A stretch of DNA of 64,000 nucleotides, from NCBI RefSeq assembly GCF_012317585.1, contig NZ_CP042909.1, positions 868,001-932,000 on the forward strand. Reading direction: 5' to 3'. The notes beneath the pieces are model-generated. The model did not search any database. It had not been told where the DNA came from and saw nothing but the letters and a program-made list of their open reading frames with translations. Shown one piece after another: positions 25,465-39,869 of this stretch (positions are counted from its first letter, which is position 1; every line of letters begins with the position of its first letter). A program made the translations under genes and the position numbers. This DNA comes from Thermosulfurimonas marina. GTDB taxonomy: Bacteria; Desulfobacterota; Thermodesulfobacteria; Thermodesulfobacteriales; Thermodesulfobacteriaceae.

Positions 25465-25854
25465 ATGCGGAGTTTGTTGGCCTGGATCATCGTAAGCCTT
25501 CTCTTTTCCCTTCCCTGGGGAGTCAAGGCCGGGGCGGAGGATGGCTGTTTCCGGCAGCCGGTAGCCTTTAAGGGAAAAGTAATCCAGGTGAGACCACCCC
25601 TTCTTGTAGTTCGGAATCGACAAAAGATCTATTTCGTCCGCCTAGGGCCTCTTCGTCTCTGGCAAGAACTGGGGGTGTCTCTTCGTCCCGGAGATCGGGT
25701 AGGGGTGCGGGGCTGGCTTTGCGGGGAGGTAGTGCTCCCGGAGGTCATTCGTTATCCCGGAGGAAAGGTCCGCTTTCGGGACCAGTGGGGGCGCCCTCTT
25801 TGGCGCAGGCGCTGGTGGCCCGGTCCCCGAAGGAGGTTCTGGCACCGGTGGTGA
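25465..25854 (+). CDS. Secreted OB-fold-like protein with Arg/Trp-rich tail
   Basis: The 129-residue protein has a signal peptide (SLLAWIIVSLLFSLPWGVKA). The mature part begins GAEDGCFRQPVAFKGKVIQV and runs as beta strands (LLVVRNRQKIYFVRLG, LRPGDRVGVRGWLCG, KVRFRDQWG), which suggests a small barrel such as an OB fold. Two cysteines are present. The last 20 residues are crowded with Arg and Trp (LWRRRWWPG, RRRFWHRW). I do not recognise a family. It overlaps the kinase start by 7 nt, so it may be the input partner of that sensor. Confidence 0.7.
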   Translation: MRSLLAWIIVSLLFSLPWGVKAGAEDGCFRQPVAFKGKVIQVRPPLLVVRNRQKIYFVRLGPLRLWQELGVSLRPGDRVGVRGWLCGEVVLPEVIRYPGGKVRFRDQWGRPLWRRRWWPGPRRRFWHRW

Positions 25855-27068
25855 AGGGCTGGCGGACTCTGGCGGCGGTGGGAGCGGGACTCCTGGTGGC
25901 CACCTTTGTGGCCGAAGCCTTCCTCCTGCGGCGGACCCTTTCCGAACACCAGCGCTTTGAGGCTGCGGCCCGGCTAGGGATGCTCGAAAGCCGTCTCACA
26001 AGCTACCTGGAGTTGCTGGCCGTGCTTCCCGAGCCCCCGGCCTATCTTCGCACTCTGGCCTGGCTCACCGATGAACTCCAGAGTGATCCCGGTCTGGTGG
26101 GGGTGCGCATCCTGGAGGGCTCCCACGTACTCCTGGACACCTTTCCCACCAATCTTTCCGGAATTTCCCCCTCCTGGGAACGCTGCCCCAAAGGGTACCG
26201 TTCGGGAAACCTCTACTTTCTTTGTCGAGAAAGCGAACTGGCCCCGGGACGGCGTTTCCGTCTGCTCGTGGTCTTTGACGCCAGTATCTCCAACCTCCTT
26301 TTTCAGGAAGCCCTCTGGGCCAGTGCCCTGATCCTTTTGGGGGCCTTGATGGTGCTCCTGGGAGGGGCCTACTATCTGGCCCGCACCGAGAAGAAGGCCC
26401 GGGAGCTTGAAAAGTGTCTTTCGGCCTCGGAGAGACTGGCCACTCTGGGACGTCTTTCGGCCATGATCGCCCACGAGATCCGCAACCCGCTCCACACCCT
26501 CTCCCTGGCTTTTCAGTATGCCCTTGAAGATCCGGAAGCCCTCCGAGAAAACCGGGCCCTGATTCAGAGGGAAATCCAGCGCCTTTCCGAGCTCACCGCA
26601 GAACTCCTCACCCTGGACCGGGGCCTGGAAATCCGTCCGGAAAGGCTGCATCCGGAAGAGGTGGTGGTGGAAATAGAATCTCGGTTCCGGGAAAAATTCC
26701 GGGCCCGGGGACTCTCCTGGGAGGCCTCTTGGGAGGACTTTGCGTTTTCCGGAGACCGTCGCTGGCTCTTGCGGGCCTTGGCCAATCTCCTGCAAAATGC
26801 CCTTCTGGCCCCTTCCGGACATCAGGTAAAGCTTTCGGTCTTTCGGGAAGGCCGGGAGGCGGTCTTTCGGGTGTGTAACACCGGAACCAGGCTCCCTTCC
26901 GTTCCTCCGGAGCGTCTCTTTGAAGCCTTTTTCACCACCCGGAACGAAGGCTTCGGAATAGGGCTCTATCTGGTGAAACAGGTGGCCGAGGCCCACGGAG
27001 GCCGGGTACAGGTCCGGGAAAAAGGAGGCTGGGTATGCTTCGAAATGAGGCTCCCCTGGTCCTCTTAG
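25848..27068 (+). CDS. Membrane sensor histidine kinase
   Basis: I choose GTG 25848 (AGGAGG 11 nt upstream; GTG 25851 also possible) over a longer frame from 25719. The 406-residue protein has one N-terminal membrane segment (about 8-25), a periplasmic sensor of roughly 130 residues, a second membrane segment (about 160-182), a HisKA dimerisation helix with the phospho-acceptor in SAMIAHEIRNPLH, and a HATPase domain (N box LANLLQNALLA; FEAFFTTRNEGFGIGLYLVK). The G1 box reads NTGT, with Asn where Asp is typical. It is the partner of the adjacent regulator, which overlaps it by 34 nt. Confidence 0.88.
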   Translation: MVKGWRTLAAVGAGLLVATFVAEAFLLRRTLSEHQRFEAAARLGMLESRLTSYLELLAVLPEPPAYLRTLAWLTDELQSDPGLVGVRILEGSHVLLDTFPTNLSGISPSWERCPKGYRSGNLYFLCRESELAPGRRFRLLVVFDASISNLLFQEALWASALILLGALMVLLGGAYYLARTEKKARELEKCLSASERLATLGRLSAMIAHEIRNPLHTLSLAFQYALEDPEALRENRALIQREIQRLSELTAELLTLDRGLEIRPERLHPEEVVVEIESRFREKFRARGLSWEASWEDFAFSGDRRWLLRALANLLQNALLAPSGHQVKLSVFREGREAVFRVCNTGTRLPSVPPERLFEAFFTTRNEGFGIGLYLVKQVAEAHGGRVQVREKGGWVCFEMRLPWSS

Positions 27069-28399
27069 TGGAGGACGAGGCCCCTCAACGGGCCCTTTTA
27101 CGGAAATATCTGGAAAGGCGGGGCTTTCGCGTAGCCGAAAGTGCCTCGGCCGCCGAGGCCTTGAGCGCCGCCGAAAGTCTCCCGGAGATCATTCTCCTGG
27201 ATTGGCGCCTTCCGGACGAAGACGGACTTTCCCTTCTTCCCAAGCTCAGGGAAAAGAGCCCCCTTTCGGCCATCATCATGCTTACGGCCTTTGCCACGGT
27301 AGAGCGGGCGGTGGAGGCCATGCGTCTTGGGGCCTATCACTACCTTACCAAGCCGGTAAACCTGGAAGAGCTCATCTTGATTATAGAAAAGGCCCTTCAG
27401 GAAAGGCGCCTCCGGATGGAGGTGGAAGATCTTCGGCGGAGGCTTTCGGCCCTGAGTCCTCCGGAGGTTGAGGGGGTGGTGGCCGAGAGTCCGGCCATGC
27501 GGGAGGTCCTCTCGCTTATCGCCCGGGTAGCTCCCACGGAGGCCACGGTCCTTCTGGTGGGAGAATCCGGGACAGGAAAGGAGGTCCTGGCCGGACTTCT
27601 CCATCGCTTGAGCCCTCGAAAGGACCAGCCCTTTCTCAAGATCAACTGTGCGGCTATTCCCGAGGGGCTCCTGGAGTCTGAGCTTTTCGGTCACGAACGC
27701 GGAGCCTTCACCGGAGCCGACCGGACCAAACCGGGGCTCCTCGAAGAAGCCGGAGAGGGCACGGTCTTTCTCGACGAGATCGGGGAACTGCCCCTTTCTC
27801 TACAGGCCAAGCTCCTCCGAGTGCTCCAGGACGGGACTTTCCGCCGGGTGGGAGGCACCCGGGAATTGCGCTGCCGGGCCAGGATCGTAGCGGCCACCAA
27901 CCGGGATCTGGCTCGCATGGTCCGGGAGGGAACCTTTCGGGAGGATCTTTACTGGCGTCTGGCGGTGATTACCCTCCGCCTCCCTCCCCTGCGAGAAAGG
28001 AGGGAGGATATTTTGCCTCTGGCCGAACATTTCCTGCGGGAGTTTTCCCGAAAGTATGGGAAAGAATTGCAGGGTTTCTCCCGGGAAGCCCTGCAGAGGC
28101 TTCTTTCTCACGGCTATCCGGGAAACGTGCGGGAACTGCGCAATATCCTGGAGCGGGCGGTCATCCTGGCCGAGGGTCCCCTGATCACCGAAAGGGACCT
28201 CACCTTTCCCGAGGAAGACTCTACGGAACTTACCCGAAAACTCTGGGAGTTACCCCTTCCCGAGGCGGTGGAGCTTCTGGAAAGAAGGCGCATCGAGGAG
28301 GCCCTGCGTCTGGCCGAAGGAGTGAAGACCCAGGCGGCCGAACTCCTCGGGATCTCCGAAAGGGCCCTGCGTTACAAGCTTGAGCGTTACGGACTTTGA
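27035..28399 (+). CDS. NtrC-family sigma54-dependent response regulator
   Basis: The 454-residue protein has a receiver domain (about 8-120; phospho-Asp in IILLDWRLPDEDG, Lys in YLTKPV), a central AAA+ domain (about 148-380) and a C-terminal Fis-type HTH (TQAAELLGISERALRYKLER). The AAA+ part shows Walker A GESGTGKE, the sigma54-contact loop ELFGHERGAFTGA, Walker B TVFLDEIGELP and the R-finger region. It activates sigma54 RNA polymerase by ATP hydrolysis. The predicted sigma54 promoters and paired repeats upstream of its own operon suggest autoregulation. Its 3' end overlaps the convergent Nudix gene by 13 nt. Confidence 0.94.
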   Translation: MLRNEAPLVLLVEDEAPQRALLRKYLERRGFRVAESASAAEALSAAESLPEIILLDWRLPDEDGLSLLPKLREKSPLSAIIMLTAFATVERAVEAMRLGAYHYLTKPVNLEELILIIEKALQERRLRMEVEDLRRRLSALSPPEVEGVVAESPAMREVLSLIARVAPTEATVLLVGESGTGKEVLAGLLHRLSPRKDQPFLKINCAAIPEGLLESELFGHERGAFTGADRTKPGLLEEAGEGTVFLDEIGELPLSLQAKLLRVLQDGTFRRVGGTRELRCRARIVAATNRDLARMVREGTFREDLYWRLAVITLRLPPLRERREDILPLAEHFLREFSRKYGKELQGFSREALQRLLSHGYPGNVRELRNILERAVILAEGPLITERDLTFPEEDSTELTRKLWELPLPEAVELLERRRIEEALRLAEGVKTQAAELLGISERALRYKLERYGL

Positions 28400-28938
28400 A
28401 AAACTTTGTGCCGAAACTTTTCCCAAAGAAGCCGAAAGGTGGGCGTAAACTCTTCCGGCCTCTGACGCAGCCATTCTTCGATCTCTTCCGGAGAAAACCA
28501 GCGGCCCTCTTCGATCTCCATAGGGTTGGGTCGAGGAGTCTTGCGGGTGGTCCCGGAAAAGAGCACTACAAATTCGTAGCCCGTTTCTTCGGAGGCGGGA
28601 AGGCGCCCTACTTCGGAAAGGCCGCAGAGAAGCCCCAGCTCCTCCTTCAATTCCCGTCGAGCGGCCACGGAATAGGGTTCCCTGGGGGCTACGTGCCCGG
28701 AGGCCGAAGAATCCCATTTTTCGGGATTTTCGTCCTTGAGGCGAGAGCGTTTCTGGAGGTAAAGCCGGCCTTCAGGGTTGAGGATCCAGACATGGACGGC
28801 CTTGTGGAAGAGCTTCTGTTCGTGGACCTTCCCTCGGGGCAGAAGCCCCATGATGTTTCCGAATTGATCCACGACTTCCAATATTTCTAGGAGCATTCTT
28901 TCCGGACTATCTTTTTTCTTCCTACCCCTTTTGGCCAT
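28387..28938 (-). CDS. Nudix hydrolase, IPP-isomerase-like subgroup
   Basis: A 183-residue protein with a complete Nudix box: GHVAPRE, then RELKEELGL (G-x5-E-x7-REUxEExGU pattern) near residues 80-102. The N-terminal part EVVDQFGNIMGLLPRGKVHE and LFHKAVHVWILNPEGRLYLQKRS resembles the IDI-like Nudix subgroup (YfcD type). It probably cleaves a nucleoside-diphosphate-linked substrate, which cannot be named. It overlaps the larB start by 17 nt, so it is cotranscribed downstream of larB. Confidence 0.85.
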   Translation of the reverse strand: MAKRGRKKKDSPERMLLEILEVVDQFGNIMGLLPRGKVHEQKLFHKAVHVWILNPEGRLYLQKRSRLKDENPEKWDSSASGHVAPREPYSVAARRELKEELGLLCGLSEVGRLPASEETGYEFVVLFSGTTRKTPRPNPMEIEEGRWFSPEEIEEWLRQRPEEFTPTFRLLWEKFRHKVFQSP

Positions 28939-29689
28939 TTTCTTCCTCTACCAGGTGATTAATTATACTTGCAAAATAGGCCGCTCCCACCCCGTTGTCA
29001 ATATTGACTACCGCCACTCCGGGAGCGCAGGTATTCAGCATGGTAAGGAGGGCGGCCAGGCCCCCGAAACTGGCCCCGTAGCCCACACTGGTAGGCACGG
29101 CGATCACCGGGCGATCCACCAGACCGGCCACCACTCCCGGCAGGGCCCCCTCCATCCCGGCCACCACGATGAGGGCCCGGGCGGAGAGCAATTCCTCCCT
29201 TACGGCCCAGAGGCGGTGGATCCCGGCCACCCCTACGTCGTAAAAGGTCCGGACCCGGTTGCCGAAATATTCTGCCGCCACCCGGGCCTCCTCGGCCACG
29301 GGAAGGTCCGCGGTCCCCGCCGAGATCACCGCCACCAGTCCTCGCCCCTCGGGAGGTCTTTCCCGGGTGAGGATCCGGGCCCGCTCATGGTAGCGGAGGC
29401 CCGGAAATTCCCGCAAGAGGCCCTCTGCCCTCTCCGGGTCCAAGCGGGTGATCATGAGGGGGAGATCCCGGGCCAGGAAACTGTGCACGATCTTCCGAAG
29501 TTCCCCCTCGGTCTTTCCCGGGGCATAAACGATTTCCGGGAAGTGTTTCCTCAGGGCCCGGTGATGGTCCAGACGGACACTTCCCAGATCTTCGTAAGGA
29601 AGACCCTCCAGCTCCCGAAGGGCCTCTTCTACCGAAAGTTCTTTCCCCTGAACCTTTTCCAGGAGTTCCCGCAGGCGCTCACGGGTCAT
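28922..29689 (-). CDS. larB: Nickel-pincer nucleotide cofactor biosynthesis protein LarB
   Basis: LarB carboxylates the pyridinium ring of NaAD and hydrolyses its phosphoanhydride, the first step of the nickel-pincer nucleotide cofactor. The 255-residue protein has an N-terminal helical part (LSVEEALRELEGLPYEDLG, VRLDHHRALRKHFPEIVYA), then a PurE-like domain: VISAGTADLPVAEEA, YDVGVAGIHRLW, VVAGMEGALPGVVAGLVDRP and AVPTSVGYGASFGG. No larC or larE is in the window. It overlaps the upstream 197-residue unknown gene by 4 nt. Confidence 0.9.
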   Translation of the reverse strand: MTRERLRELLEKVQGKELSVEEALRELEGLPYEDLGSVRLDHHRALRKHFPEIVYAPGKTEGELRKIVHSFLARDLPLMITRLDPERAEGLLREFPGLRYHERARILTRERPPEGRGLVAVISAGTADLPVAEEARVAAEYFGNRVRTFYDVGVAGIHRLWAVREELLSARALIVVAGMEGALPGVVAGLVDRPVIAVPTSVGYGASFGGLAALLTMLNTCAPGVAVVNIDNGVGAAYFASIINHLVEEENGQKG

Positions 29690-30279
29690 CCGGAAAGGGC
29701 CCTCTCAAAGATCCCTTTGAGGTAATCCAGCTGGCGCTGGTACTGGGGATCGAGCTGGTCGCGCACCTTCCGCCATTCCTCCTGGAACTGCGGATGCATT
29801 TCCACCTCCACTTTCACCTTGACCCCCATCTGGTTGCTCAGGGCCTCTTCCACTCCAGCCAGTTGGGTCTCAAATTGTTGTTTGAGTTGCTGGTAAAGGG
29901 CCTCCCGGTGGTTAAGGTATTGCTGGAGGAGTTTTTCGATCTCCCGGGTGAGATTCTTGATCTCCGGGAAGGCGGAGAAGACGGCCTCTAGTCCCTGAAG
30001 GGCCTTTTGACAATCCTTGAGGGCCATCTCATCCCGGGGGAGGACGATGTTTCGCAGGAGGGTCTCCACCACCCCCCGGACCACCGGAAGACGTTCCTCC
30101 GGGGAAAGCTTGGCTATCTCGGCCGCCAGATCCACTTCTCCTTCCGGACTCAAATAGCGGGCCGCCAGCCGCTGCCCCTTCTCCCGAAGTTCCTGGGCCC
30201 GCAATTCTTCCTTGGAGGCCTTGCCGATCTTTTCGGCCTTCTCCAAAGCGATCTCCAGAGCACTCTTGATCTCTCCCAT
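29686..30279 (-). CDS. Helical cytosolic protein of unknown function upstream of larB
   Basis: I start at ATG 30279, with GGGGGAGGGAC before it. The 197 residues are mostly charged helix with coiled-coil character (about residues 95-150: NLTREIEKLLQQYLNHREAL, QQLKQQFETQLAGVEEALSN). There is no signal, membrane segment or cysteine motif apart from a single DCQKAL. No family is recognised. It overlaps larB by 4 nt, so it may assist LarB or simply share its promoter. It is divergent from the Hdr/Mvh operon; the 118-nt gap contains no site I can defend. Confidence 0.75.
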   Translation of the reverse strand: MGEIKSALEIALEKAEKIGKASKEELRAQELREKGQRLAARYLSPEGEVDLAAEIAKLSPEERLPVVRGVVETLLRNIVLPRDEMALKDCQKALQGLEAVFSAFPEIKNLTREIEKLLQQYLNHREALYQQLKQQFETQLAGVEEALSNQMGVKVKVEVEMHPQFQEEWRKVRDQLDPQYQRQLDYLKGIFERALSG

Positions 30280-30397
30280 GTCCCTCCCCCTGAAGGTATT
30301 GTAGGGCCCTTTCAAAGTTAAAACAGGAAAACCTCTTTGGCCAGTCGGCCTCGAAAGAATTTCCCTGACCAGATTTTGATGTTAAAAACAAAAAGGT

Positions 30398-31192
30398 ATG
30401 TCCCGGGAGTGGCAGGTAGAAGAGCTCTTGGCCGAAGTCCGCAGGCGGGGGTACTCCCTTACCCGAAGGACCTTCCTTTACTACGTCCAGCTGGGGCTCC
30501 TTCCCAAGGGGGTCCGCAGAGGCCAGCCTTCGGGAGGAGTAAAGTTCTTTTACCCTCCGGAGACCCTGCCCCGCCTCTTAAAGATCCTAGAACTCAAAAA
30601 GGCCGGCCTTAAGCTCAAAGAGATCCGAGATAGACTGGGCCCCTTTTCGGAAGAAGAGGCCTTTCTTTCGGAAAAGGCGCCGGTTTCCGAAGAGGTCTTC
30701 TCCCGGGAGAAATTACGGAACTGTTCCCTTTGCGGGCTCTGTGGGGGGATCTGCCCAGTTTATGAAGAAATGGAGGTCCCTGCCTGGCGGGCCCTTCAGG
30801 CCTATCTGGAAAGAGAGCCCGGTCTCTGGGAGCTCAATACCCCCTGGATCTGTGTGGGCTGCTACCTCTGTCAGGAGGCCTGTCCGGAGGGGATCCCCCT
30901 TACCACCTTTCTTGAGGCCCTCCGGCGTGAGGCCCGCCGGAAAGGGACCCTGAAGATCTCCATGGCCGGGCAATGGCATCATCTTTTCTGGACCCTCCTG
31001 CAGGAGAGGGGCCGGAGCTTTGACTTCGGGGCCACCCATGCCTACCGGGTGCAGGTCCTGCGGGAAGGAGAGCGCCTGGAACTCATCCTCAAGCTCCCCT
31101 CAGGCTCCGGGGTGCGGCAGATCAAGCCCCCTCCTTCCCTGAAAAACCCCGAGCTTTTTCGGGAAATGCTGGCTGAGGTGGAGGGGAGCTAA
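30398..31192 (+). CDS. HdrC-like iron-sulfur subunit with N-terminal MerR-type HTH
   Basis: The 264-residue protein is a fusion. Residues about 4-75 form a MerR-type winged helix (RTFLYYVQLGLLPKGVRRG, FFYPPETLPRLLKILELKKA, LKLKEIRDRLG). After a linker (about 80-105) come two [4Fe-4S] motifs of HdrC: CSLCGLCGGICP (about 108) and CVGCYLCQEACPEGIP (about 152). A helical HdrC tail follows. HdrC passes electrons between HdrA and HdrB. The HTH could bind DNA or another subunit. hdrB starts on the stop codon (TAATG), so this is the first gene of the hdrCBA-mvhDGA operon. Confidence 0.88.
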   Translation: MSREWQVEELLAEVRRRGYSLTRRTFLYYVQLGLLPKGVRRGQPSGGVKFFYPPETLPRLLKILELKKAGLKLKEIRDRLGPFSEEEAFLSEKAPVSEEVFSREKLRNCSLCGLCGGICPVYEEMEVPAWRALQAYLEREPGLWELNTPWICVGCYLCQEACPEGIPLTTFLEALRREARRKGTLKISMAGQWHHLFWTLLQERGRSFDFGATHAYRVQVLREGERLELILKLPSGSGVRQIKPPPSLKNPELFREMLAEVEGS

Positions 31193-31971
31193 TGCACCTT
31201 TATTATTTCCCGGGGTGTGCCGCCTATCATCTGGCCCACTCCATGGATCAGGCCGTGGAGGCCCTCTTCGAGCTCTGGAGTCTCCCGGTGAAACGGCTTG
31301 CGGACTGGAATTGCTGTGGGGCCCGGGAGGTCTCGGCTAAGGCCCCGCGGGTGAGGTGGTTTCTCGCGGCCCGCAATCTGGCCCTGGCCGGAGAGGGGAT
31401 AGTCCTTACAGGCTGTAGCCTCTGCTATCACAATCTTCGCCGCACGGAAGAAGAACTTTTACAAAATGAATGGGAGCTAAACCAGCTCAACCGAGTTCTG
31501 GCCCGGGAGGGGCTGCGGTATGATCCTTCCCGGGTTCGCGTCCGGCACCTTCTCGATTTTTTAGTCCAAAAAGAAGTCCTATCCGGCGTCCCCCGAGCGA
31601 CTTCTTCTCCAAAATGGCCGGTGGTGGCCTATTACGGCTGTTTTTTGGCCCGTCCCTGGCCGGTATCTGAGGGTAGTTTGGAAAAGGTCTTGAAGCTTGC
31701 GGGTTATCGGGTCAAGGAATTTTCCCTGCGGGAGAGTTGCTGCGGCGGACACCTTCCCCGAAGTGACTCTCCGGTAATCGAGTCCCTCTGTAGGCGTCTT
31801 CTACAGGGGGCACAGGCCATAGGTGCGGAGATTGTGGCTGTAAGTTGTCCGGCCTGCCGAAGCAATCTCGAAATCTACGGGAGGGTCCCGGGGGTTCGGA
31901 TTCTCTATTTTTCAGAGCTTTTGGCCCTGGCCTTCGGGGTGCCCCCCTCCTATCTGGGTCTGGAGGGATGA
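31192..31971 (+). CDS. hdrB: HdrB-like heterodisulfide reductase subunit
   Basis: HdrB holds the active site of heterodisulfide reductases in two noncubane iron-sulfur clusters, each set by a CCG motif. Both are present in this 259-residue protein: GCAAYH / NCCGAREV / GCSLCYHN in the first half, and YYGCF / SCCGGH / SCPACRSN in the second. The native disulfide or other acceptor cannot be inferred: in bacteria without CoM-CoB the acceptor is unknown. It overlaps hdrC by 1 nt and hdrA by 4 nt. Confidence 0.93.
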   Translation: MHLYYFPGCAAYHLAHSMDQAVEALFELWSLPVKRLADWNCCGAREVSAKAPRVRWFLAARNLALAGEGIVLTGCSLCYHNLRRTEEELLQNEWELNQLNRVLAREGLRYDPSRVRVRHLLDFLVQKEVLSGVPRATSSPKWPVVAYYGCFLARPWPVSEGSLEKVLKLAGYRVKEFSLRESCCGGHLPRSDSPVIESLCRRLLQGAQAIGAEIVAVSCPACRSNLEIYGRVPGVRILYFSELLALAFGVPPSYLGLEG

Positions 31972-33836
31972 TGAAGATCGGGCTTTTTCTGTGCGAATGC
32001 GGGGGCAACATCAGCGAAAAGATCCACTTTGAGACCCTCGTGAAACGTCTTTCAGGCCTAGAAGACCTAAAGATTTTTCGGCATCCCTTTCTCTGTTCCC
32101 CGGAAGGCCAAAGTTTTTTTCGGGAAAAGGCGCGGGGGCTTTCCGGAGTGCTGGTGGCAGCCTGTTCCCCCCATCTCCATCAGGAGACCTTCTGGCATTT
32201 GATCCGGAAAGAGGCCCCTCAGCCCCTTAAGTGGCTGGCCTTACGGGAAGAGGTGGCCTGGACTTCCGGTCCGGAGGCCACGGAAAAGGCCGAGAGGCTT
32301 CTCAAGTTCTTTCTTCGGGCCCTGCGCCGGAGCCGTCCTCCGGCCTTACGGACCCTGAAACCCATGCCCCATGTCCTGATCCTGGGGGCCGGGGCTGCGG
32401 GAATTAAGGCCGCCCTCCGGCTGAACGCCTGCGGGCTGGAAGTCTCTCTGGTGGAAAGGGAGCCTTTTGTAGGGGGCAAAGCCCTCTATCTCGATCGGCT
32501 TTATCCCCGCCTGGAGTGCGCCTCCTGTGTGGTCTCCCCCCTTATTTCGGCCCTTGCGGCCCGACCGGAAATCCGGGTCTTCACCCAGGCCCGTCTGGTC
32601 AAGGTTGAGGGGGAAGCCGGAGACTTTGTGGTGGAAGTAGAAACCCTTCCCCGTTTTGTAGATCTTGAAAGATGTAACGGTTGCGGAAAGTGCCTGGAGA
32701 TCTGCCCGCGCCCCGGAGCCCTTGAGAGAGACCCTCCCCATCCCTTTCCTCAAGCCCCGGTCCTTCGTCCCCAGGCCTGTCTCCACTTTCAAGGGAAAAA
32801 GTGCCAGCTCTGCCAGAAGGCCTGCCCTAAAAAGGCCTTCCTTTTCCGAGAGGGCCCGCGCCGGCACACGCTGCGGGTGGGAGGCCTCATCGTGGCCACG
32901 GGCTTTCAGCCCTATCCGGGAGCACGGCTAGAGTCCCTGGGCTACGGCCGCCTGCCGGAGGTGACCACCCTCTACGAGGTGGAAAAGGCCCTATCTCAAG
33001 GGAAGGCCCCGGGAGGCCAAAAAAGACCTCAGAGGATAGCCATAGTCCACTGCGCCGGAAGCCGGGAGCAGGGGCATCTCCCCTATTGTTCCGAAGTTTG
33101 CTGCGGCTTTGCCCTCAAGGCCTCCCTGCGACTGAAAGAACTGTATCCCGAGGCGGAGATCACCCACTTTTATCAAGATCTCCGGCTGCGGGGTCTTGCG
33201 GGAGAGGAGCTTTATCGGCGGGCCCGCCGGGCCGGCCTGCGTTTCGTGCGCGGCCGGGTGGCCGAAATCTCCCCCATACCTTACCCGGAAACCTCTTCCC
33301 GGGGGGTCACGGTGGTGGCCGAAGACACCCTGGCCCGCCGCCGCCTCAAATGGGGGGCCGATCTGGTGATCCTGGTCCCGGGTTTTGTGCCGGAGAGGGG
33401 GGCCGGAGAAGTGGCCGGGCTTTTGGGCCTTTGTCCGGACGAGTACGGATTTTTCGAGCCCCGGGAGGAAAAGACCGCCCCGGTGGAGAGCTTTCGGGAA
33501 GGGATCTGGCTGGCCGGGGCCTGCACCGGGCCCAAGAATCTTGCGGACTCGGTAGCCACCGCCGAGGCCGCGGCCCTGGCGGCCTTCCTTTTCCTGCGGC
33601 AGGAAAGTCTGGTAAAAGAAGCCCCCTCGATCTATTGGCATGAAAACCGTTGCGGTTTCTGTCAGCTCTGCGTGGAGCTCTGCCCCTTTGCCGCCATCCG
33701 GCCTCTGGAAGGCCAGATCAAGATCGACCCCGGGGCCTGTCGCCATTGCGGACTCTGTGTAAGCGCCTGTCCCTCCGGAGCCCTGGAAGGGTCGGAAGGG
33801 TCCTTTACGGAGGACTGGAGGGAACTCTGGCGATGA
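31968..33836 (+). CDS. hdrA: HdrA-like electron-bifurcating flavoprotein
   Basis: I start at ATG 31968 (ATGATGA overlaps the hdrB stop; ATG 31971 is also possible). Order of parts over about 622 residues: N-terminal ICECGG-type motif (CECGGNIS), a CSPHLHQETF segment, the FAD-binding fold VLILGAGAAGIKAALRLN, thioredoxin-reductase-like core with an inserted ferredoxin (CNGCGKCLEICP, CQLCQKACP), and a C-terminal 2[4Fe-4S] ferredoxin (CGFCQLCVELCP, CRHCGLCVSACPSGA). HdrA bifurcates H2 electrons from MvhD between HdrCB and ferredoxin. It overlaps mvhD by 4 nt. Confidence 0.94.
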   Translation: MMKIGLFLCECGGNISEKIHFETLVKRLSGLEDLKIFRHPFLCSPEGQSFFREKARGLSGVLVAACSPHLHQETFWHLIRKEAPQPLKWLALREEVAWTSGPEATEKAERLLKFFLRALRRSRPPALRTLKPMPHVLILGAGAAGIKAALRLNACGLEVSLVEREPFVGGKALYLDRLYPRLECASCVVSPLISALAARPEIRVFTQARLVKVEGEAGDFVVEVETLPRFVDLERCNGCGKCLEICPRPGALERDPPHPFPQAPVLRPQACLHFQGKKCQLCQKACPKKAFLFREGPRRHTLRVGGLIVATGFQPYPGARLESLGYGRLPEVTTLYEVEKALSQGKAPGGQKRPQRIAIVHCAGSREQGHLPYCSEVCCGFALKASLRLKELYPEAEITHFYQDLRLRGLAGEELYRRARRAGLRFVRGRVAEISPIPYPETSSRGVTVVAEDTLARRRLKWGADLVILVPGFVPERGAGEVAGLLGLCPDEYGFFEPREEKTAPVESFREGIWLAGACTGPKNLADSVATAEAAALAAFLFLRQESLVKEAPSIYWHENRCGFCQLCVELCPFAAIRPLEGQIKIDPGACRHCGLCVSACPSGALEGSEGSFTEDWRELWR

Positions 33837-34222
33837 AAAAGCGCCTCTTGGGCTTTCTCTGTCAATGGTGTGGGGCCCGGGCCCTGGAACATCTTTCCTA
33901 TCAGAGACGGCCCCTTCCCGCAGGTTTCTATCCGATAAGGGTGCCCTGTAGCGGCTCGGTGGCCCCGGAAGTTATTACCCAGGCCCTGGCCTCCGGGGCC
34001 TCGGGGGTCCTGGTGGTAGGCTGCCCCCCCGGACAGTGTCACTTCCGTGAGGGAAATCAGCGGTGCGCCATCCGCATGCGCTTTTTGAAAGGCTGGCTCA
34101 AGGCCCTGGGGGTTTCTGGGGAACGGATACGCCTGGCCCTAGTAGGAGCAGGAGAAGGCGAAAAACTCTACCAGATCGTCTGGGACTTCTGGGAGGACTT
34201 AGGTGAAGATCGCCCTTTATAA
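33833..34222 (+). CDS. mvhD: MvhD-type [2Fe-2S] linker subunit
   Basis: A 129-residue protein that joins the Mvh hydrogenase to HdrA. Family landmarks are LCQWCGARALEHL, IRVPCSGSVAPEVI, and GCPPGQCHFREGN, whose cysteines bind a [2Fe-2S] cluster. I use ATG 33833, which overlaps the hdrA stop (ATGA), not the frame open from 33650. It overlaps mvhG by 20 nt. Confidence 0.93.
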   Translation: MKKRLLGFLCQWCGARALEHLSYQRRPLPAGFYPIRVPCSGSVAPEVITQALASGASGVLVVGCPPGQCHFREGNQRCAIRMRFLKGWLKALGVSGERIRLALVGAGEGEKLYQIVWDFWEDLGEDRPL

Positions 34223-34985
34223 CGGCGTTTCCTGCGGGGGATGCGATCTGGTCTTCTTTTTGGAGGCCCTGGAGCCCTGGCTGGAAGATCTGGAGGTGGT
34301 CTTCTGGCCAGAGATGGGGGCTAGCGACCCTCTGGCCCTCCAAAAAAGCCCGGACCGAGGGCTGGACCTGGCCGTGGTTTGCGGGGCGGTACGCACGGAA
34401 TCCCAGAAGGCCTTCTTAAAACTTCTGCGGACCAAAGCCCGGAGAATGATGGCCGTAGGGGCCTGCGCCCTCTGGGGAGGGCTTCCGGGGCTCTCCTGGC
34501 TTGCGGGAGAGGGCCCCTGGCCGGCCACGGAGGTGGTGAAGTTTGAGACCCAGGTGCCCGGCTGTCCTCCGGAGCCTCACACCCTGGTAGCAGCCCTGGA
34601 GGGCCGCCTGGCGGAGGTCTCCTTTCCCTTGTGTCAAGAGTGTCCGCGAGAAAGGCGCCCCTTCCGGTGGCGCACCGTGCGGTTTTTGGCGGGGGGCCCC
34701 TCTCGGGAGTGCTTTCTGGCCCAAGGGATCCTCTGTGCCGGCCCGGTAACCCGAGGGGGATGCGGAGCGGCCTGCGTAAAGGCCGGACGTCCCTGTCTTG
34801 GTTGTTACGGCTTTTTACCCGGTCGGGGACCGGAGAGCCTTCTGGATCTGGTGGCCTCGGCCCTTACCCCGGCCAAGGCGGAAGAGGTCCTCGAGGCCCT
34901 CCAAGATCCCGTGGGACTCCTCTCCCCCTTTACCCTGGCCATCCACCCTCTGGTAAGGAGGAGATATGCCCCGGATAAAGATTGA
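34203..34985 (+). CDS. mvhG: Cytosolic [NiFe] hydrogenase small subunit, MvhG type
   Basis: It starts with GTG at 34203 (AGGACTTAG before it), opening KIALYNGVSCGGCDLVFFLE. Cysteines for three [4Fe-4S] clusters lie in CGGC, GACALWGG, PGCPPEPHTL, LCQECPRER and GCGAACVKAGRPCLGC. There is no Tat signal, so it is cytosolic (group 3c type). It moves electrons from the nickel site to MvhD. The length of 260 residues is normal. It overlaps mvhA by 20 nt. Confidence 0.92.
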   Translation: MKIALYNGVSCGGCDLVFFLEALEPWLEDLEVVFWPEMGASDPLALQKSPDRGLDLAVVCGAVRTESQKAFLKLLRTKARRMMAVGACALWGGLPGLSWLAGEGPWPATEVVKFETQVPGCPPEPHTLVAALEGRLAEVSFPLCQECPRERRPFRWRTVRFLAGGPSRECFLAQGILCAGPVTRGGCGAACVKAGRPCLGCYGFLPGRGPESLLDLVASALTPAKAEEVLEALQDPVGLLSPFTLAIHPLVRRRYAPDKD

Positions 34986-36291
34986 ACACCTGGCTCGCAT
35001 CGAGGGTTCCGCCGGGCTCGAAGTGGTGTTGGATCCCTCGGGCCGCGTCCAAGAAGTGATCCTCAAAAGCGAGATCTTCCGGGGTTTTGAGAGATTCGTT
35101 CGGGGCCGGCCCGCTTTAGAGATGCCTTTTATCGCGGGGCGCATCTGCGGCATCTGCGCCGAGGCCCACACCCTGGCCTCTCTTCAGGCCCTGGACGAGA
35201 TCTTCAGCACAAGGCCCTCGGCCAACGTGGTCCGCATCCGAAAGATCTACTTTCTTTCGGGATTTCTGCGGGACCACCTCACCGTGGTCTCCCTTTTCGG
35301 AGCCCCGGACTTCGGAGGAGAAAGGAAATCCTCTACGGCCCTCTCTTTTTTAAAAGAATCCGGCCGTCTGAGGCCCTTTCTAAGGCTCCGGGAAAAATTA
35401 AACCGGACCCTCGAGCTCATCTCCGGAAGGAGTTTTCAGGGAGTAGGGGGACTTCCCGGGGACTGGGCCAGGGCCCTTTCCAAAGAAGAGGTCCAGGAGA
35501 TCCGCCGCCTGGCCGAAAGAATCCGAAAAGAGACCCGGGATTACGCCCTTTCCCTCGTCCGGGAGTTCTCGCTGGGGGAAACCCTTCCGCCCCGGCCTCT
35601 TTTGGCCTTGGAAGGAGGTTTTACCGAAGGCCCTCTGGCCCTCTTTTTCCCGGGAGGGAGAAAGAGGAAATTCAAGGACTATCGGAAGGTCCTCCGGGAA
35701 GAGGAACCCCAAACCGACGGCCTCAGACCTACGCATCTTTTTTCCGGAGAGGCCTATCTGGTGGGACCTCTAGCCCGCTTTTTCCTCTGGCCCCCTCCAG
35801 AAGGAGGTCCCGAGGACCTCCAGGCCCGGCTTAGAGAATGTTTAGAACAGCAAGAAGGCCGGCCGGTGGAGCTTCCTCATCTCCTGCGGATTTACGAGTG
35901 TCTTCTCGCCGCCCGGGAATTGGAAAAGACGGCTCAGGCCCTCAAGCCCCACAGGCCTTCGGCGGAAGAGAAACGGCCTCAAAAGGCCGAAGGTCTGGGT
36001 CTGGTAGAGGCCCCTCGCGGCCTTCTGGTGCATCACTACCGGGTGGACGAAAAGGGTTATTTACAGCAAGTAAATATCCTTACCCCTACGGCCCAAAACG
36101 TAAAAGCCTTGAAAAAGGATCTAGAAAAGTCCCTGGAGGGCTTTAAGCCTAAAAATTTCCAGAAACTGGCTGAGCAAGCCGAAAAGGTGGTCCGTTCTTA
36201 TGATCCCTGCATTCCCTGCATGCTTCACATAATGATTCCCCACAATAGAATAAGATTATTTAGTTTAACCCTTCTCAATCGTACTTTCTAA
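34966..36291 (+). CDS. mvhA: Cytosolic [NiFe] hydrogenase large subunit, MvhA type
   Basis: A 441-residue protein. Nickel ligands are complete: N-terminal RICGICAEAH and C-terminal DPCIPCMLH. A 20-residue tail follows the final His (IMIPHNRIRL and so on), which would be removed by a maturation endopeptidase after nickel insertion. Only one such protease is encoded here (39892). It begins KIEHLARIEGSAGLEVVL, as in MvhA/FrhA. It ends the Hdr/Mvh operon; I see no terminator before the Hyn promoter. Confidence 0.94.
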   Translation: MPRIKIEHLARIEGSAGLEVVLDPSGRVQEVILKSEIFRGFERFVRGRPALEMPFIAGRICGICAEAHTLASLQALDEIFSTRPSANVVRIRKIYFLSGFLRDHLTVVSLFGAPDFGGERKSSTALSFLKESGRLRPFLRLREKLNRTLELISGRSFQGVGGLPGDWARALSKEEVQEIRRLAERIRKETRDYALSLVREFSLGETLPPRPLLALEGGFTEGPLALFFPGGRKRKFKDYRKVLREEEPQTDGLRPTHLFSGEAYLVGPLARFFLWPPPEGGPEDLQARLRECLEQQEGRPVELPHLLRIYECLLAARELEKTAQALKPHRPSAEEKRPQKAEGLGLVEAPRGLLVHHYRVDEKGYLQQVNILTPTAQNVKALKKDLEKSLEGFKPKNFQKLAEQAEKVVRSYDPCIPCMLHIMIPHNRIRLFSLTLLNRTF

Positions 36292-36324: not shown

Positions 36325-36353
36325 TTGACTTTTAGTGAGGGTAAAGGCAGAAT
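36325..36353 (+). promoter_or_regulatory. Sigma70-like promoter of the periplasmic hydrogenase operon
   Basis: TTGACT (36325-36330), 17-nt spacer, CAGAAT (36348-36353), about 30 nt before the hynB ATG. Scores 5/6 and 4/6 against consensus. Confidence 0.55.
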
Positions 36354-36383
36354 AGAGGTGTTAAAAACAGGAAGGAGGGGGCT

Positions 36384-37472
36384 ATGTCCAGGATACCGGC
36401 TTTGAAGTTAGGGGGGCTTTCCCGGCGGGACTTTCTCAAGGTCATCACCATAGCCACGGCCACCATGGGACTTCCGGTGGAGATGGTGGATAAGGTAGCG
36501 GCAGCGGTAAAGTCCTCGGAAAGGCCCCCGGTGGTCTGGCTTCACTTTATGGAATGCACGGGCTGTACCGAAAGCCTTTTGCGTTCCTCCCATCCACCCC
36601 TGGCCCGCCTCATTCTGGAGCTCATTTCTCTTGAATATCACGAGACCCTGATGGCCGGAGCCGGGGAGCAGGCGGAGGCCTCTCTCAAAGAAGCCCTCAA
36701 GAAGTACAAGGGGAAATTCATCTGTGTGGTGGAGGGAGGGGTCTCCACCAAGGACGGAGGAATCTACTGTCAGATCGGAGGCCGCCCGGCCATACAGATC
36801 CTCAAGGAGGTGGCCCAGGAGGCGGCGGCGGTGATCGCCATCGGGACCTGTGCCGCCTTCGGAGGGATCCAGGCCGCGGCTCCCAATCCCACGGGAGCGG
36901 TAGGGGTGGGCCAAGTCCTCGCTAAGCCGGTGATCAATATCCCGGGCTGTCCGCCCAACCCCTATAATTTCCTCTCCACGGTCCTTTATCTCCTTACCTT
37001 CGGTCATCCTCCAGAGTTGGACGAACTTTCGCGGCCCAAGTTCGCCTATGGTCGGCGCATCCACGACCACTGCGAGAGGCGCCCCCACTTTGACGAGGGG
37101 CGTTTTGTGGAATCCTTTGGGGACCCGGCCCACCAGAAGGGCTACTGCCTTTACAAAGTAGGTTGTAAGGGGCCGGTGACCTATTCCAATTGCTCGGTGG
37201 TGCGCTTCTGTGACGTAGGGGCCTGGCCGGTGGGTTCTGGCCACCCCTGCATGGGTTGCACGGAACCCAACTTCTGGGACCGTATGAGCCCCTTCTACGA
37301 GCACCTTCCCAAGATTTACATCCCGGCCGGAGGCGGTATCCGGGCCGAGGCCGAAAAGGTGGGCCGAGTAGCCGTGGGGGCGGCCGCCGGAGTGGTGGCG
37401 GCCCACGCGGCGGCCGGAGTGATCAAAAAGGCCGTAAAGAGCCTCAAAGGTTCGGAAAAAGAGGAGGACTAA
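36384..37472 (+). CDS. hynB: Tat-exported [NiFe] hydrogenase small subunit
   Basis: The Tat signal is LSRRDFLKVITIATATMG. Cluster cysteines are ECTGCTES (proximal), GTCAAFGG, PGCPPNPYNF, and a distal/medial set HDHCERRPHF, YCLYKVGCKGP, SNCSVVRFC and HPCMGCTEPNF. The proximal site has CTGC and FGG, without the extra cysteines of oxygen-tolerant enzymes, so it is likely the oxygen-sensitive type. A hydrophobic C-terminal segment (about 325-350, GRVAVGAAAGVVAAHAAAG) can anchor it to the membrane. It starts 12 nt after GGAAGGAGGGG. Confidence 0.95.
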   Translation: MSRIPALKLGGLSRRDFLKVITIATATMGLPVEMVDKVAAAVKSSERPPVVWLHFMECTGCTESLLRSSHPPLARLILELISLEYHETLMAGAGEQAEASLKEALKKYKGKFICVVEGGVSTKDGGIYCQIGGRPAIQILKEVAQEAAAVIAIGTCAAFGGIQAAAPNPTGAVGVGQVLAKPVINIPGCPPNPYNFLSTVLYLLTFGHPPELDELSRPKFAYGRRIHDHCERRPHFDEGRFVESFGDPAHQKGYCLYKVGCKGPVTYSNCSVVRFCDVGAWPVGSGHPCMGCTEPNFWDRMSPFYEHLPKIYIPAGGGIRAEAEKVGRVAVGAAAGVVAAHAAAGVIKKAVKSLKGSEKEED

Positions 37473-37475
37473 GCC

Positions 37476-39188
37476 ATGGCTAGGAAAAAGATCACCATTG
37501 ATCCCATTACCCGGATCGAAGGGCATCTCCGCATAGATGTAGAGGTAGAAGGGGGCCGGGTGCGAGAGGCCTGGGCCTCGGCCCAGATGTGGCGAGGGAT
37601 CGAAGTGATCCTTAAAGGACGCGACCCCAGGGATGCCTGGGCCTTTACCCAGCGCTTCTGCGGAGTCTGTACCACGGTGCACGCCATTGCCTCGGTGCGG
37701 GCGGTAGAAAACGCCCTCCAGATGGAAATCCCCCTGAATGCCCAGTATGTGCGTAACCTTATCCTCTGTGCCCACGGAATGCACGACCATATCGTCCATT
37801 TCTATCATCTTTCCGCCCTGGACTGGGTGGATGTGGTCTCGGCCCTCAAGGCCGATCCGGTCAAGACCGCCCGTCTGGCTCAGAGCCTTTCGGACTGGCC
37901 GGGAAACAGCGTTTCCTTCTTTAAAGAGGTGAAGAAAAAGCTGGAAAAGTTTGTGGCCAGCGGACAGCTCGGCCCCTTTGCCAGCGGCTACTGGGGACAT
38001 CCGGCCATGAAACTTCCCCCGGAGGTCAATCTCTTGGCCGTAGGCCACTATCTGGAGGCCCTGGATTATCAGTACAAGGCCAACCAGGTGGTGGCCATCT
38101 TCGGGGCCAAGACCCCGCACATCCAGACGGTGATCGTGGGCGGGGTGGCCCTGGCCATCAACCCCGAAAACGAGGCCACCCTCAACATGGAACGCCTGGC
38201 CTGGGTGCGGGAACTCCTGCTTCAGGTGCGGGATTTCGTCCAAAAGGTCTATTTTGTGGACGCCTGTGCCCTGGCGGCCCTTTACCCCGAATGGTTCAAG
38301 ATCGGGGCCGGGGTGACCAACTATCTGGCGGTGCCGGATCTGCCGTTAGATACCGCAGGGACCAAATTCGATCTTCCTGGAGGGACCATCTTCAAGGGTG
38401 ATCTTTCCTCGGTCAAACCCATCAAGAGTTTTAACGACGCCTACTTCCGGGACAACGTCGCCGAATGCGTGATGCACTCCTGGTACGAAGGCGACTGGAC
38501 CCGGCACCCCTGGCAGGAAGATACCGTCCCCAACTACACCGGATTCCAGGAAAAAGGAAAGTATTCCTGGGCCAAGGCCCCCAGGTTTACCGGAGAGCCC
38601 ATGCAGGTGGGGCCGCTGGCCCAGGTCCTGGTAGGCTACGCCCAGGGGCACGAACTTATTCGCCGGTGGACCGATGAGGCCCTCCGGCGCATCTCCGCCA
38701 TCTCTGGCCGCCGGATCACCATCAACGACTTCCATTCCACCATGGGGCGCCAGGTGGCCCGGGCCATCCGCACCGCGGTGCTGGCCGATCTGGCCCTGAA
38801 ACATCTGGATCTCCTGGTGGAAAATATCGGACGCGGAGACCTGGAGGTCTATCCCTATCGCAAACCGCCCACCTTCCCCAAGGGGGAGATCATGGGCTTT
38901 GGCTTTCATGAGGCCCCCCGGGGGACCCTTTCGCACTGGGTGGTGATCGACAACGGCAAGATTAAGAACTATCAGGCCGTGGTGCCTTCCACCTGGAATG
39001 TAAGCCCCCGGTGCCAGCTGGGAAAACGTGGTCCTTATGAGGAGAGCCTCATCGGGAACCCGGTGGCCCAGCCCGAAAGACCGCTAGAGGTCCTGCGGAC
39101 CATTCATTCCTTTGATCCCTGCATCGCCTGCGCGGTACATGTGCTGGACCCGGAGCGGCGGGAGATCATAAAAGTAAAGGCCTTATAG
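37476..39188 (+). CDS. hynA: Periplasmic [NiFe] hydrogenase large subunit
   Basis: A 570-residue protein opening ITIDPITRIEGHLRIDVEVE. Nickel ligands are RFCGVCTTVH (N-terminal) and DPCIACAVH (C-terminal), with a 15-residue tail after the last His for proteolytic maturation. It oxidises H2 at the outer face of the inner membrane and passes electrons through HynB to the cytochrome b. It exits through Tat with HynB. It lies 3 nt downstream of hynB. Confidence 0.96.
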   Translation: MARKKITIDPITRIEGHLRIDVEVEGGRVREAWASAQMWRGIEVILKGRDPRDAWAFTQRFCGVCTTVHAIASVRAVENALQMEIPLNAQYVRNLILCAHGMHDHIVHFYHLSALDWVDVVSALKADPVKTARLAQSLSDWPGNSVSFFKEVKKKLEKFVASGQLGPFASGYWGHPAMKLPPEVNLLAVGHYLEALDYQYKANQVVAIFGAKTPHIQTVIVGGVALAINPENEATLNMERLAWVRELLLQVRDFVQKVYFVDACALAALYPEWFKIGAGVTNYLAVPDLPLDTAGTKFDLPGGTIFKGDLSSVKPIKSFNDAYFRDNVAECVMHSWYEGDWTRHPWQEDTVPNYTGFQEKGKYSWAKAPRFTGEPMQVGPLAQVLVGYAQGHELIRRWTDEALRRISAISGRRITINDFHSTMGRQVARAIRTAVLADLALKHLDLLVENIGRGDLEVYPYRKPPTFPKGEIMGFGFHEAPRGTLSHWVVIDNGKIKNYQAVVPSTWNVSPRCQLGKRGPYEESLIGNPVAQPERPLEVLRTIHSFDPCIACAVHVLDPERREIIKVKAL

Positions 39189-39197
39189 GAGGTGGCC

Positions 39198-39869
39198 ATG
39201 AGGGTAGAAAAGAGGCTCTATCGGCGGGTCTTCGTCTGGAGTTGGGCCTTAAGGCTCTTTCACTGGTCCTTCGCCCTCTCCTGTGCCGTACTTCTTCTTA
39301 CGGGTATCTATATCCACTTTCCTCCTATCACTACCAAGTGGGCGGAGTTCAAACCCCAGTATCTCATGGCCACCTTACGTTATTATCACTTTGCTGCGGC
39401 CTATGTCTTTATGGCCGCGCTCGGGGTGCGGCTCTACCTCCTCTTTTTCGGCAACCGCTACGAGCGTTTCACCGATTTTCTGCCCATCAACCGCCGCAAC
39501 CTACGTTCTTTCTGGCAGTCCCTCAAGTTCTACCTCTACCTCACCGACGAACACGAGTGGCGCATGGGGCACACGGTGCTGGCCGGGACCATTTACTTCC
39601 TGCTCTTTCTGGCGGCCATAGTGATGTCCCTCACCGGGCTTTATATGCTCTATCCCGATGTCTCCTGGATCTCCCGGATGGGGGTGACCCTTTTCGGCTC
39701 GGTCCAGATGGCCCGTTTCATCCACTATATTCTCCACTGGTGCTTCATCTTTTTTGTGATCGTGCACCTTTACATCGCCATCTGGAACGACTTCAAGGCC
39801 CCGGAGGCCATCATTTCCGGAGCCTTTTCCGGCTCCAAATTTATGCCGGCGGAGGTAGAAGAGGATTAG
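39198..39869 (+). CDS. hynC: Hydrogenase cytochrome b subunit (HyaC/HupZ type)
   Basis: I choose ATG 39198 (AGGAGGTGGCC upstream), although GTG 39192 is in frame. The 223-residue protein has four membrane helices with heme-ligand histidines: RLFHWSFALS, YYHFAAAYVF, and HYILHWCFIFFVIVHLY. It passes H2 electrons from HynB to the quinone pool. It lies 9 nt downstream of hynA. Confidence 0.93.
   Translation: MRVEKRLYRRVFVWSWALRLFHWSFALSCAVLLLTGIYIHFPPITTKWAEFKPQYLMATLRYYHFAAAYVFMAALGVRLYLLFFGNRYERFTDFLPINRRNLRSFWQSLKFYLYLTDEHEWRMGHTVLAGTIYFLLFLAAIVMSLTGLYMLYPDVSWISRMGVTLFGSVQMARFIHYILHWCFIFFVIVHLYIAIWNDFKAPEAIISGAFSGSKFMPAEVEED

Follow-up and report, generated by a model that had tools for sequence, protein, structure and literature searches.

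A MerR-type winged helix fused to HdrC in Thermosulfurimonas: a candidate regulator of two hydrogenase operons

How chemolithoautotrophs match hydrogenase synthesis to the hydrogen supply and to the assembly of their large Fe-S complexes is a question brought up here by a single gene in a 64,000-nt stretch of the Thermosulfurimonas marina genome (the window), in which HdrC, an Fe-S electron-transfer subunit encoded together with a hydrogenase, appears to carry a MerR-type DNA-binding head. Is the head genuine, does it read DNA, and if so which genes would it control? The features discussed are collected in Table 1. No description of a MerR-HdrC fusion was found by a full-text literature search.

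The initial annotation described a MerR-like winged helix of 75 residues joined in one open frame to a complete two-cluster HdrC, and this make-up was borne out. The frame from 30398 to 31192 is uninterrupted, with zero internal stops. Residues 21-79 match Pfam MerR_1 (1.6e-5, 25.4 bits against a cut-off of 21.6), residues 106-166 match Fer4_8 (7.8e-9, 36.4 bits against a cut-off of 27), and both CxxCxxCxxxCP motifs are complete, at residues 109-120 and 152-163. The MerR-like N-terminus stands, but its length has to be amended, ie the HTH extends to about residue 80 and is followed by a variable linker (residues 81-105). In the PDB, the Fe-S part is matched best by methanogen HdrC subunits. 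Against NCBIfam TIGR03290 (methanogen HdrC) the fused protein scores 42.7 bits, below the equivalog cut-off of 160, and it is therefore referred to as HdrC-like and not as a methanogen equivalog. The gene adjoins hdrB and hdrA, which is the gene context of HdrC. In HdrABC-MvhAGD systems HdrC likewise has two CxxCxxCxxxCP clusters and is followed by hdrB, hdrA and mvhDGA, whereas methanogen HdrC chains have about 184 residues and no HTH, compared to 264 residues here. A further stretch of the HdrC part, ERGRSFDFGAxHAY at residues 203-216 (31004-31045), is invariant across the fusion clade in alignment A4.

Table 1. Positions in the window of the fused gene, its domains, the candidate operators and the two hydrogenase operons.
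Feature	Position	Strand	Remarks
Candidate operator 1, TGTTAAAAACA	30380..30390	+	holds extended -10-like TGTTAAAAA; 7 nt 5' of fused-gene ATG
Fused gene, MerR-type winged helix + HdrC, 264 aa	30398..31192	+	ATG 30398, stop 31190-31192
MerR-type winged-helix domain, residues 1-80	30398..30637	+	Pfam MerR_1, model, structural matches
Linker, residues 81-105, variable	30638..30712	+	alignment A4; pN 0.19-0.73
HdrC core, residues 106-264	30713..31189	+	with invariant ERGRSFDFGA motif
4Fe-4S motif 1, C109-C119	30722..30754	+	invariant in alignment A4
4Fe-4S motif 2, C152-C162	30851..30883	+	invariant in alignment A4
hdrB	31192..31971	+	two CCG domains
hdrA	31968..33836	+	
mvhD (FlpD)	33833..34222	+	
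mvhG, hydrogenase small subunit	34203..34985	+	
mvhA, hydrogenase large subunit	34966..36291	+	both Ni-ligand motifs present
hyn promoter, sigma-70-type, TTGACT-17-CAGAAT	36325..36353	+	5 nt before candidate operator 2
Candidate operator 2, TGTTAAAAACA	36359..36369	+	at predicted start-point of hyn promoter
hynS, group 1 NiFe hydrogenase small subunit	36384..37472	+	Tat-type leader SRRDFLK
hynL, large subunit	37476..39188	+	
Membrane cytochrome b subunit, probable	39192..39869	+	reading and T. dismutans annotation

The full-length AlphaFold model had a mean pLDDT of 54.7 and was confident, and used, for the HTH alone; the model of the first 81 residues had a mean pLDDT of 92.5. Its predicted elements (H7-16, H23-31, E39-42, E48-52, H56-68 and H73-80) follow the helix-helix-strand-strand-helix-helix order of the MerR-type winged fold, with 23-31 as the recognition helix and the strands 39-42 and 48-52 as the wing. 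Structural alignment of this model gave Z scores of 10.7 to CadR-DNA and SoxR, 10.5 to TipAL and DNA-bound MtaN, and 10.3 to GlnR-DNA, and a profile-based sequence search of the PDB returned MerR proteins too. The net charge of the head is +10 and that of the remainder of the protein about 0. Compared to the classical MerR proteins CadR, SoxR, CueR and MtaN, with which it shares the winged-helix fold (Z about 10) and the match to MerR_1, the fused protein joins helix 1 to the recognition helix by a longer loop (GYxxxRRTFLYY) and has neither a coiled-coil dimerisation helix nor a C-terminal effector domain: after helix 4 comes the variable linker and then the Fe-S domain.

Two things could have undone the fusion as first described, namely a frameshift or start-site error and loss of the HTH in close relatives. 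A genome search found the fusion in eight of the 41 genomes of the class (G000, G214 and G225-G230), all from one clade of thermophilic sulfur bacteria, Thermosulfurimonas and close relatives, and all eight genomes of that clade have it, with the HTH retained and with both MerR_1 and Fer4_8 matched. Full-length or nearly full-length copies are present in Thermosulfurimonas dismutans, one Thermosulfurimonas MAG and one MAG filed as Thermodesulfatator. Outside this clade the fusion was absent from all other sampled genomes of the class or phylum; in a search of 395 phylum genomes the whole length was matched in the window genome and T. dismutans only, and the plasmid records searched had no full-length match. 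In genomes of the non-fusion type the HdrC relatives align from about residue 50-100 on, in frames mostly of 130-250 residues, and often adjoin hdrB. The nearest unfused MerR domains in the phylum belong to ordinary MerR, MerR-TetR and MerR-cyclase-like proteins, none of them fused to an Fe-S domain.

The initial annotation had also pointed to conservation of the DNA-contact residues of HTH and wing as a check on the head. Recognition helix and wing are among the best-conserved parts of the fusion protein, with 23 of the 31 positions in segment 23-53 invariant in alignment A4. Pairwise codon comparison, from which the pairs G228-G226 (near-identical) and G214-G226 were left out, gave saturated synonymous sites between species over residues 1-80 (pS approximately 0.6-1.0), while recognition helix and wing were nearly unchanged in the same species pairs (pN 0.02-0.20); the linker had a pN of 0.19-0.73. 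The N-terminal part is therefore translated and selected, and judging from these codon comparisons a start-site or frameshift error is excluded, for practical purposes, as the source of the fusion.

When the upstream regions of the fused genes were aligned, an invariant block of 11 nt, TGTTAAAAACA, was seen 5' of the start codon. The 1.76-Mb window genome contains this word exactly twice, before the fused hdrC and before hynS, the second copy being at the adjoining hydrogenase promoter and not part of the initial annotation. There are 11 further sites with one mismatch, compared to 16 for the reversed control, ie no excess, and the site set in this genome is therefore taken to be two. The word lies 5-7 nt 5' of the fused hdrC in all eight fusion genomes, and 5-6 nt after the -10 box of hynS in all seven in which the hynS start is sequenced; G214 falls outside the second count, its assembly being 64% complete and without hynS. 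Of the words common to the 15 upstream regions from the eight genomes, between whose species neutral sites are saturated, TGTTAAAAACA is the longest. Over 1000 shuffles of these regions the shared word had 3-4 letters; in the real regions with TGTTAAAAACA masked it had 4.

Of the fusion-less genomes, 28 have a hynS, and at none of these hynS promoters is there an exact TGTTAAAAACA, as judged by comparing the coordinates of word sites and hynS and, for 18 of the genomes, also by direct reading; in the 90 bases upstream of hynS in 18 fusion-less genomes the nearest match has at least two mismatches. Several of the fusion-less relatives (G065, G216, G224 and G028) retain the TTGACTTTTTTCGCAAA promoter at hynS, so the word was gained or lost while the promoter itself stayed the same. 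In the fusion-less genomes of the class the counts of TGTTAAAAACA are similar to the control, and the sites sampled lie mostly within long open frames, none of them near Hdr or hydrogenase genes. As the eight genomes form one clade, the joint occurrence of fusion and word may go back to a single evolutionary event. A few other copies were set aside. Two in the fusion-less G231, 11 kb apart, precede neither a hydrogenase nor an Hdr gene, and BLAST of L099, checked for the G231 site, revealed no gene of either kind. One extra copy in G214, before a sigma-factor-like gene, and one in G230, with no gene behind it, are isolated and were taken as chance.

The positions of the two copies relative to promoter elements are not those of a classical MerR operator, ie a palindrome in a long spacer between -35 and -10; the word lies at or downstream of the -10. 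At hynS in the fusion genomes, TTGACT is separated by 17-18 bp from a -10-like hexamer, and the word follows after another 5-6 bp, covering the expected transcription start-point. At hdrC an extended -10-like element, TGTTAAAAA, lies inside the word, with a weak -35 (3-5 of 6 consensus matches) 16-17 bp upstream; general scans of 30200-30450 found no inverted repeats or consensus promoters. With the ATG coming 5-7 nt after a word that holds a -10-like hexamer, the hdrC transcript may be leaderless or nearly so; the end of the hexamer is 9 nt from the ATG in the window and 7-8 nt in the relatives. The spacing to hdrC is fixed at 5-7 nt, whereas the divergent DUF6657 gene may be as near as about 30 nt or as far as about 100 nt, and the word therefore belongs to hdrC. 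The suggestion that the fusion might act on its own upstream region, 30280-30397, is thus upheld in part: that region contains a word, at 30380-30390, that is invariant throughout the clade, but the word is tied to hdrC and not to the divergent gene.

The MerR-type repressor GlnR provides a comparison for how the head might read it. GlnR contacts the half-site TGTNA, numbered T3G4T5N6A7, through Tyr32 (at T3), Arg28 (reading G4 and touching T5) and Arg31 (touching T7') (PMC9249791). The word opens with TGTTA, and by the RxxxY spacing Arg28, Tyr32 and Arg31 correspond to R24, Y28 and L27 of the head, a correspondence drawn from motif spacing and not from the structure of a complex. The residues at the positions of the GlnR Arg and Tyr, R24 and Y28, are invariant, and the third base-contacting residue, Arg31, is replaced by Leu27. 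Since many MerR proteins share this Arg, the R24 match is supporting but not decisive. The GlnR-type full palindrome, TGTNA-N7-TNACA, is absent and the 11-bp word is shorter than the palindromes of MerR-type dimers, so binding by the head would have to be monomeric or of some unusual geometry. The first gene after one of the two sites encodes the head, which is thus the likely reader of the word, and from the sequence evidence we think it quite probable that it binds there.

The initial annotation had allowed for another function, with the HTH turned into a protein-docking domain. Were it a docking or architectural domain, the word would serve two co-expressed operons only as part of their promoter or leader. 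MerR-like folds can bind protein, the CbpM-CbpA J-domain complex (3ucs) being among the structural matches of the head, and at hdrC the word could be kept partly for the extended -10-like element with which it coincides. At hynS, however, a separate -35/-10 pair precedes the word, which is therefore not the promoter there, and fusion-less relatives have the same hynS promoter without it. Since the invariant residues of helix and wing are those that contact DNA in MerR and GlnR proteins, and with the head carrying its charge of +10, docking is now the less likely function, and we regard it as decidedly improbable.

If the word is an operator, it could also belong to a separately encoded regulator that co-ordinates both hydrogenases, the HTH on HdrC serving otherwise. 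Fusion and word occur together in a single clade, and any other gene peculiar to it would fit equally well; a sensor kinase and NtrC-type response regulator are encoded just upstream in the window and in T. dismutans. NtrC-type activators, however, normally bind far upstream of sigma-54 promoters, and here the hyn promoter is sigma-70-like with the word at its start-point. Rex is an unlikely owner, as nearly every genome of the class has it, whether or not the fusion is there too, and its 18-bp site differs from the 11-bp word. The simplest owner is the regulator joined to the gene that the site immediately precedes, and a separate regulator is considered unlikely.

Given binding by the fused head, the site overlaps either the core promoter (hdrC) or the start-point (hynS), which makes repression of both operons the probable effect; we judge this likely. 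The opposite effect, activation of hdrC, hyn or both by MerR-style distortion of the promoter, is very doubtful. Many MerR proteins are activators and the hdrC promoter is weak by consensus (-35 with 3-5 of 6 matches), but MerR proteins activate from a site within the -35/-10 spacer, which is then 19-20 bp long, and the hyn spacer has a normal length of 17-18 bp with the word downstream of the -10. Taken as a whole, the reading in which the head binds the word and controls both operons, most likely by repression, is one to which the sequence comparisons incline us slightly.

Under this repression model the fused protein would do its work as a subunit in the cytoplasmic Hdr-Mvh hydrogenase complex and would carry a functional MerR-type head on a flexible tether, the linker leaving the head free to reach DNA whatever the position of the Fe-S part. 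The head would bind TGTTAAAAACA at two places only, the promoter of hdrCBA-mvhDGA and the start-point of hynSL-cytochrome b, the latter being the operon of the second, membrane-linked hydrogenase. Bound at either site it would block RNA polymerase, and both hydrogenase operons would be repressed. The repressing form might be HdrC outside the complex, or HdrC with its clusters oxidised when hydrogen is scarce; assembly into the reduced Hdr-Mvh complex, or reduction of the clusters when hydrogen is available, would lift the repression. Granted binding and repression, the chances that assembly or redox state is the signal are about even or marginally better. NiFe-hydrogenase large subunits over the Pfam cut-off are found in the window genome only in the hdr-mvh and hyn operons. 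We tentatively suggest, as something rather short of probable, that the Hdr-Mvh complex itself acts as transcription factor for every NiFe hydrogenase of the cell: the head, covalently part of HdrC, would read the assembly or cluster redox state and would directly set the level of the Hdr-linked cytoplasmic hydrogenase and of the respiratory one, by way of a single 11-bp operator present at both promoters. If true, a subunit of an Hdr-hydrogenase complex would regulate its own synthesis, its complete regulon comprising two sites, and the enzyme would control its own production together with that of a second hydrogenase. Candidate sensor, regulator and operators are thereby all named for the question of hydrogenase supply.

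The nearest known designs are GlnR with glutamine synthetase, and trigger enzymes of the PutA type. In the Gram-positive GlnR/TnrA-glutamine synthetase systems, as here, there is a MerR-type winged helix without the classical coiled coil, and GlnR is controlled by a metabolic enzyme, as is proposed for the head. GlnR and glutamine synthetase are, however, separate proteins that work with a 17-bp palindrome and a glutamine signal, whereas here there is one chain and an 11-bp word. PutA differs in its ribbon-helix-helix domain and its flavin sensing, the head here being of MerR type and borne on the Fe-S electron-transfer subunit of a multi-subunit hydrogenase. The likeness is that PutA, the repressor of put, is a redox enzyme that represses its own operon (PMC6978683), as proposed here. 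BldC also has a MerR-like winged helix without the coiled coil, binds with one protomer per 9-bp AT-rich unit and can repress (PMC5859096). It is, however, a free protein of 68 residues that oligomerises on direct repeats, unlike the single isolated 11-bp sites found here.

In T. dismutans, hdrCBA-mvhDGA (TDIS_0910-0915) adjoins a respiratory hydrogenase (TDIS_0916-0918), the pair being described as 'two hydrogenases' (PMC4911364). The group 1 assignment of hynS is taken from the T. dismutans copy in the part of that paper drawn on here, whose passages list the counterpart of the fused gene simply as hdrC, with no mention of an HTH. In the fusion-less G231 hynS is apparently interrupted by in-frame stops and spread over two fragments (contig C37:3151-4198). 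Upstream of the locus in the window, the sensor kinase and NtrC-type response regulator occupy 25719-28399; the pair is kept in T. dismutans (L005), an NtrC-type regulator was seen also in L004 and L006, and a second layer of control by the pair is possible. The divergent pair at 28922-30276 on the minus strand encodes a DUF6657 protein and a protein of the AIR-carboxylase family, LarB-like by family. Nearly every genome of the class has a DUF6657 gene, and since it is far from hynS in G028 and G065, the fusion-less relatives in which coordinates were compared, the hdr-mvh-hyn locus was probably joined to the DUF6657 gene in the fusion clade.
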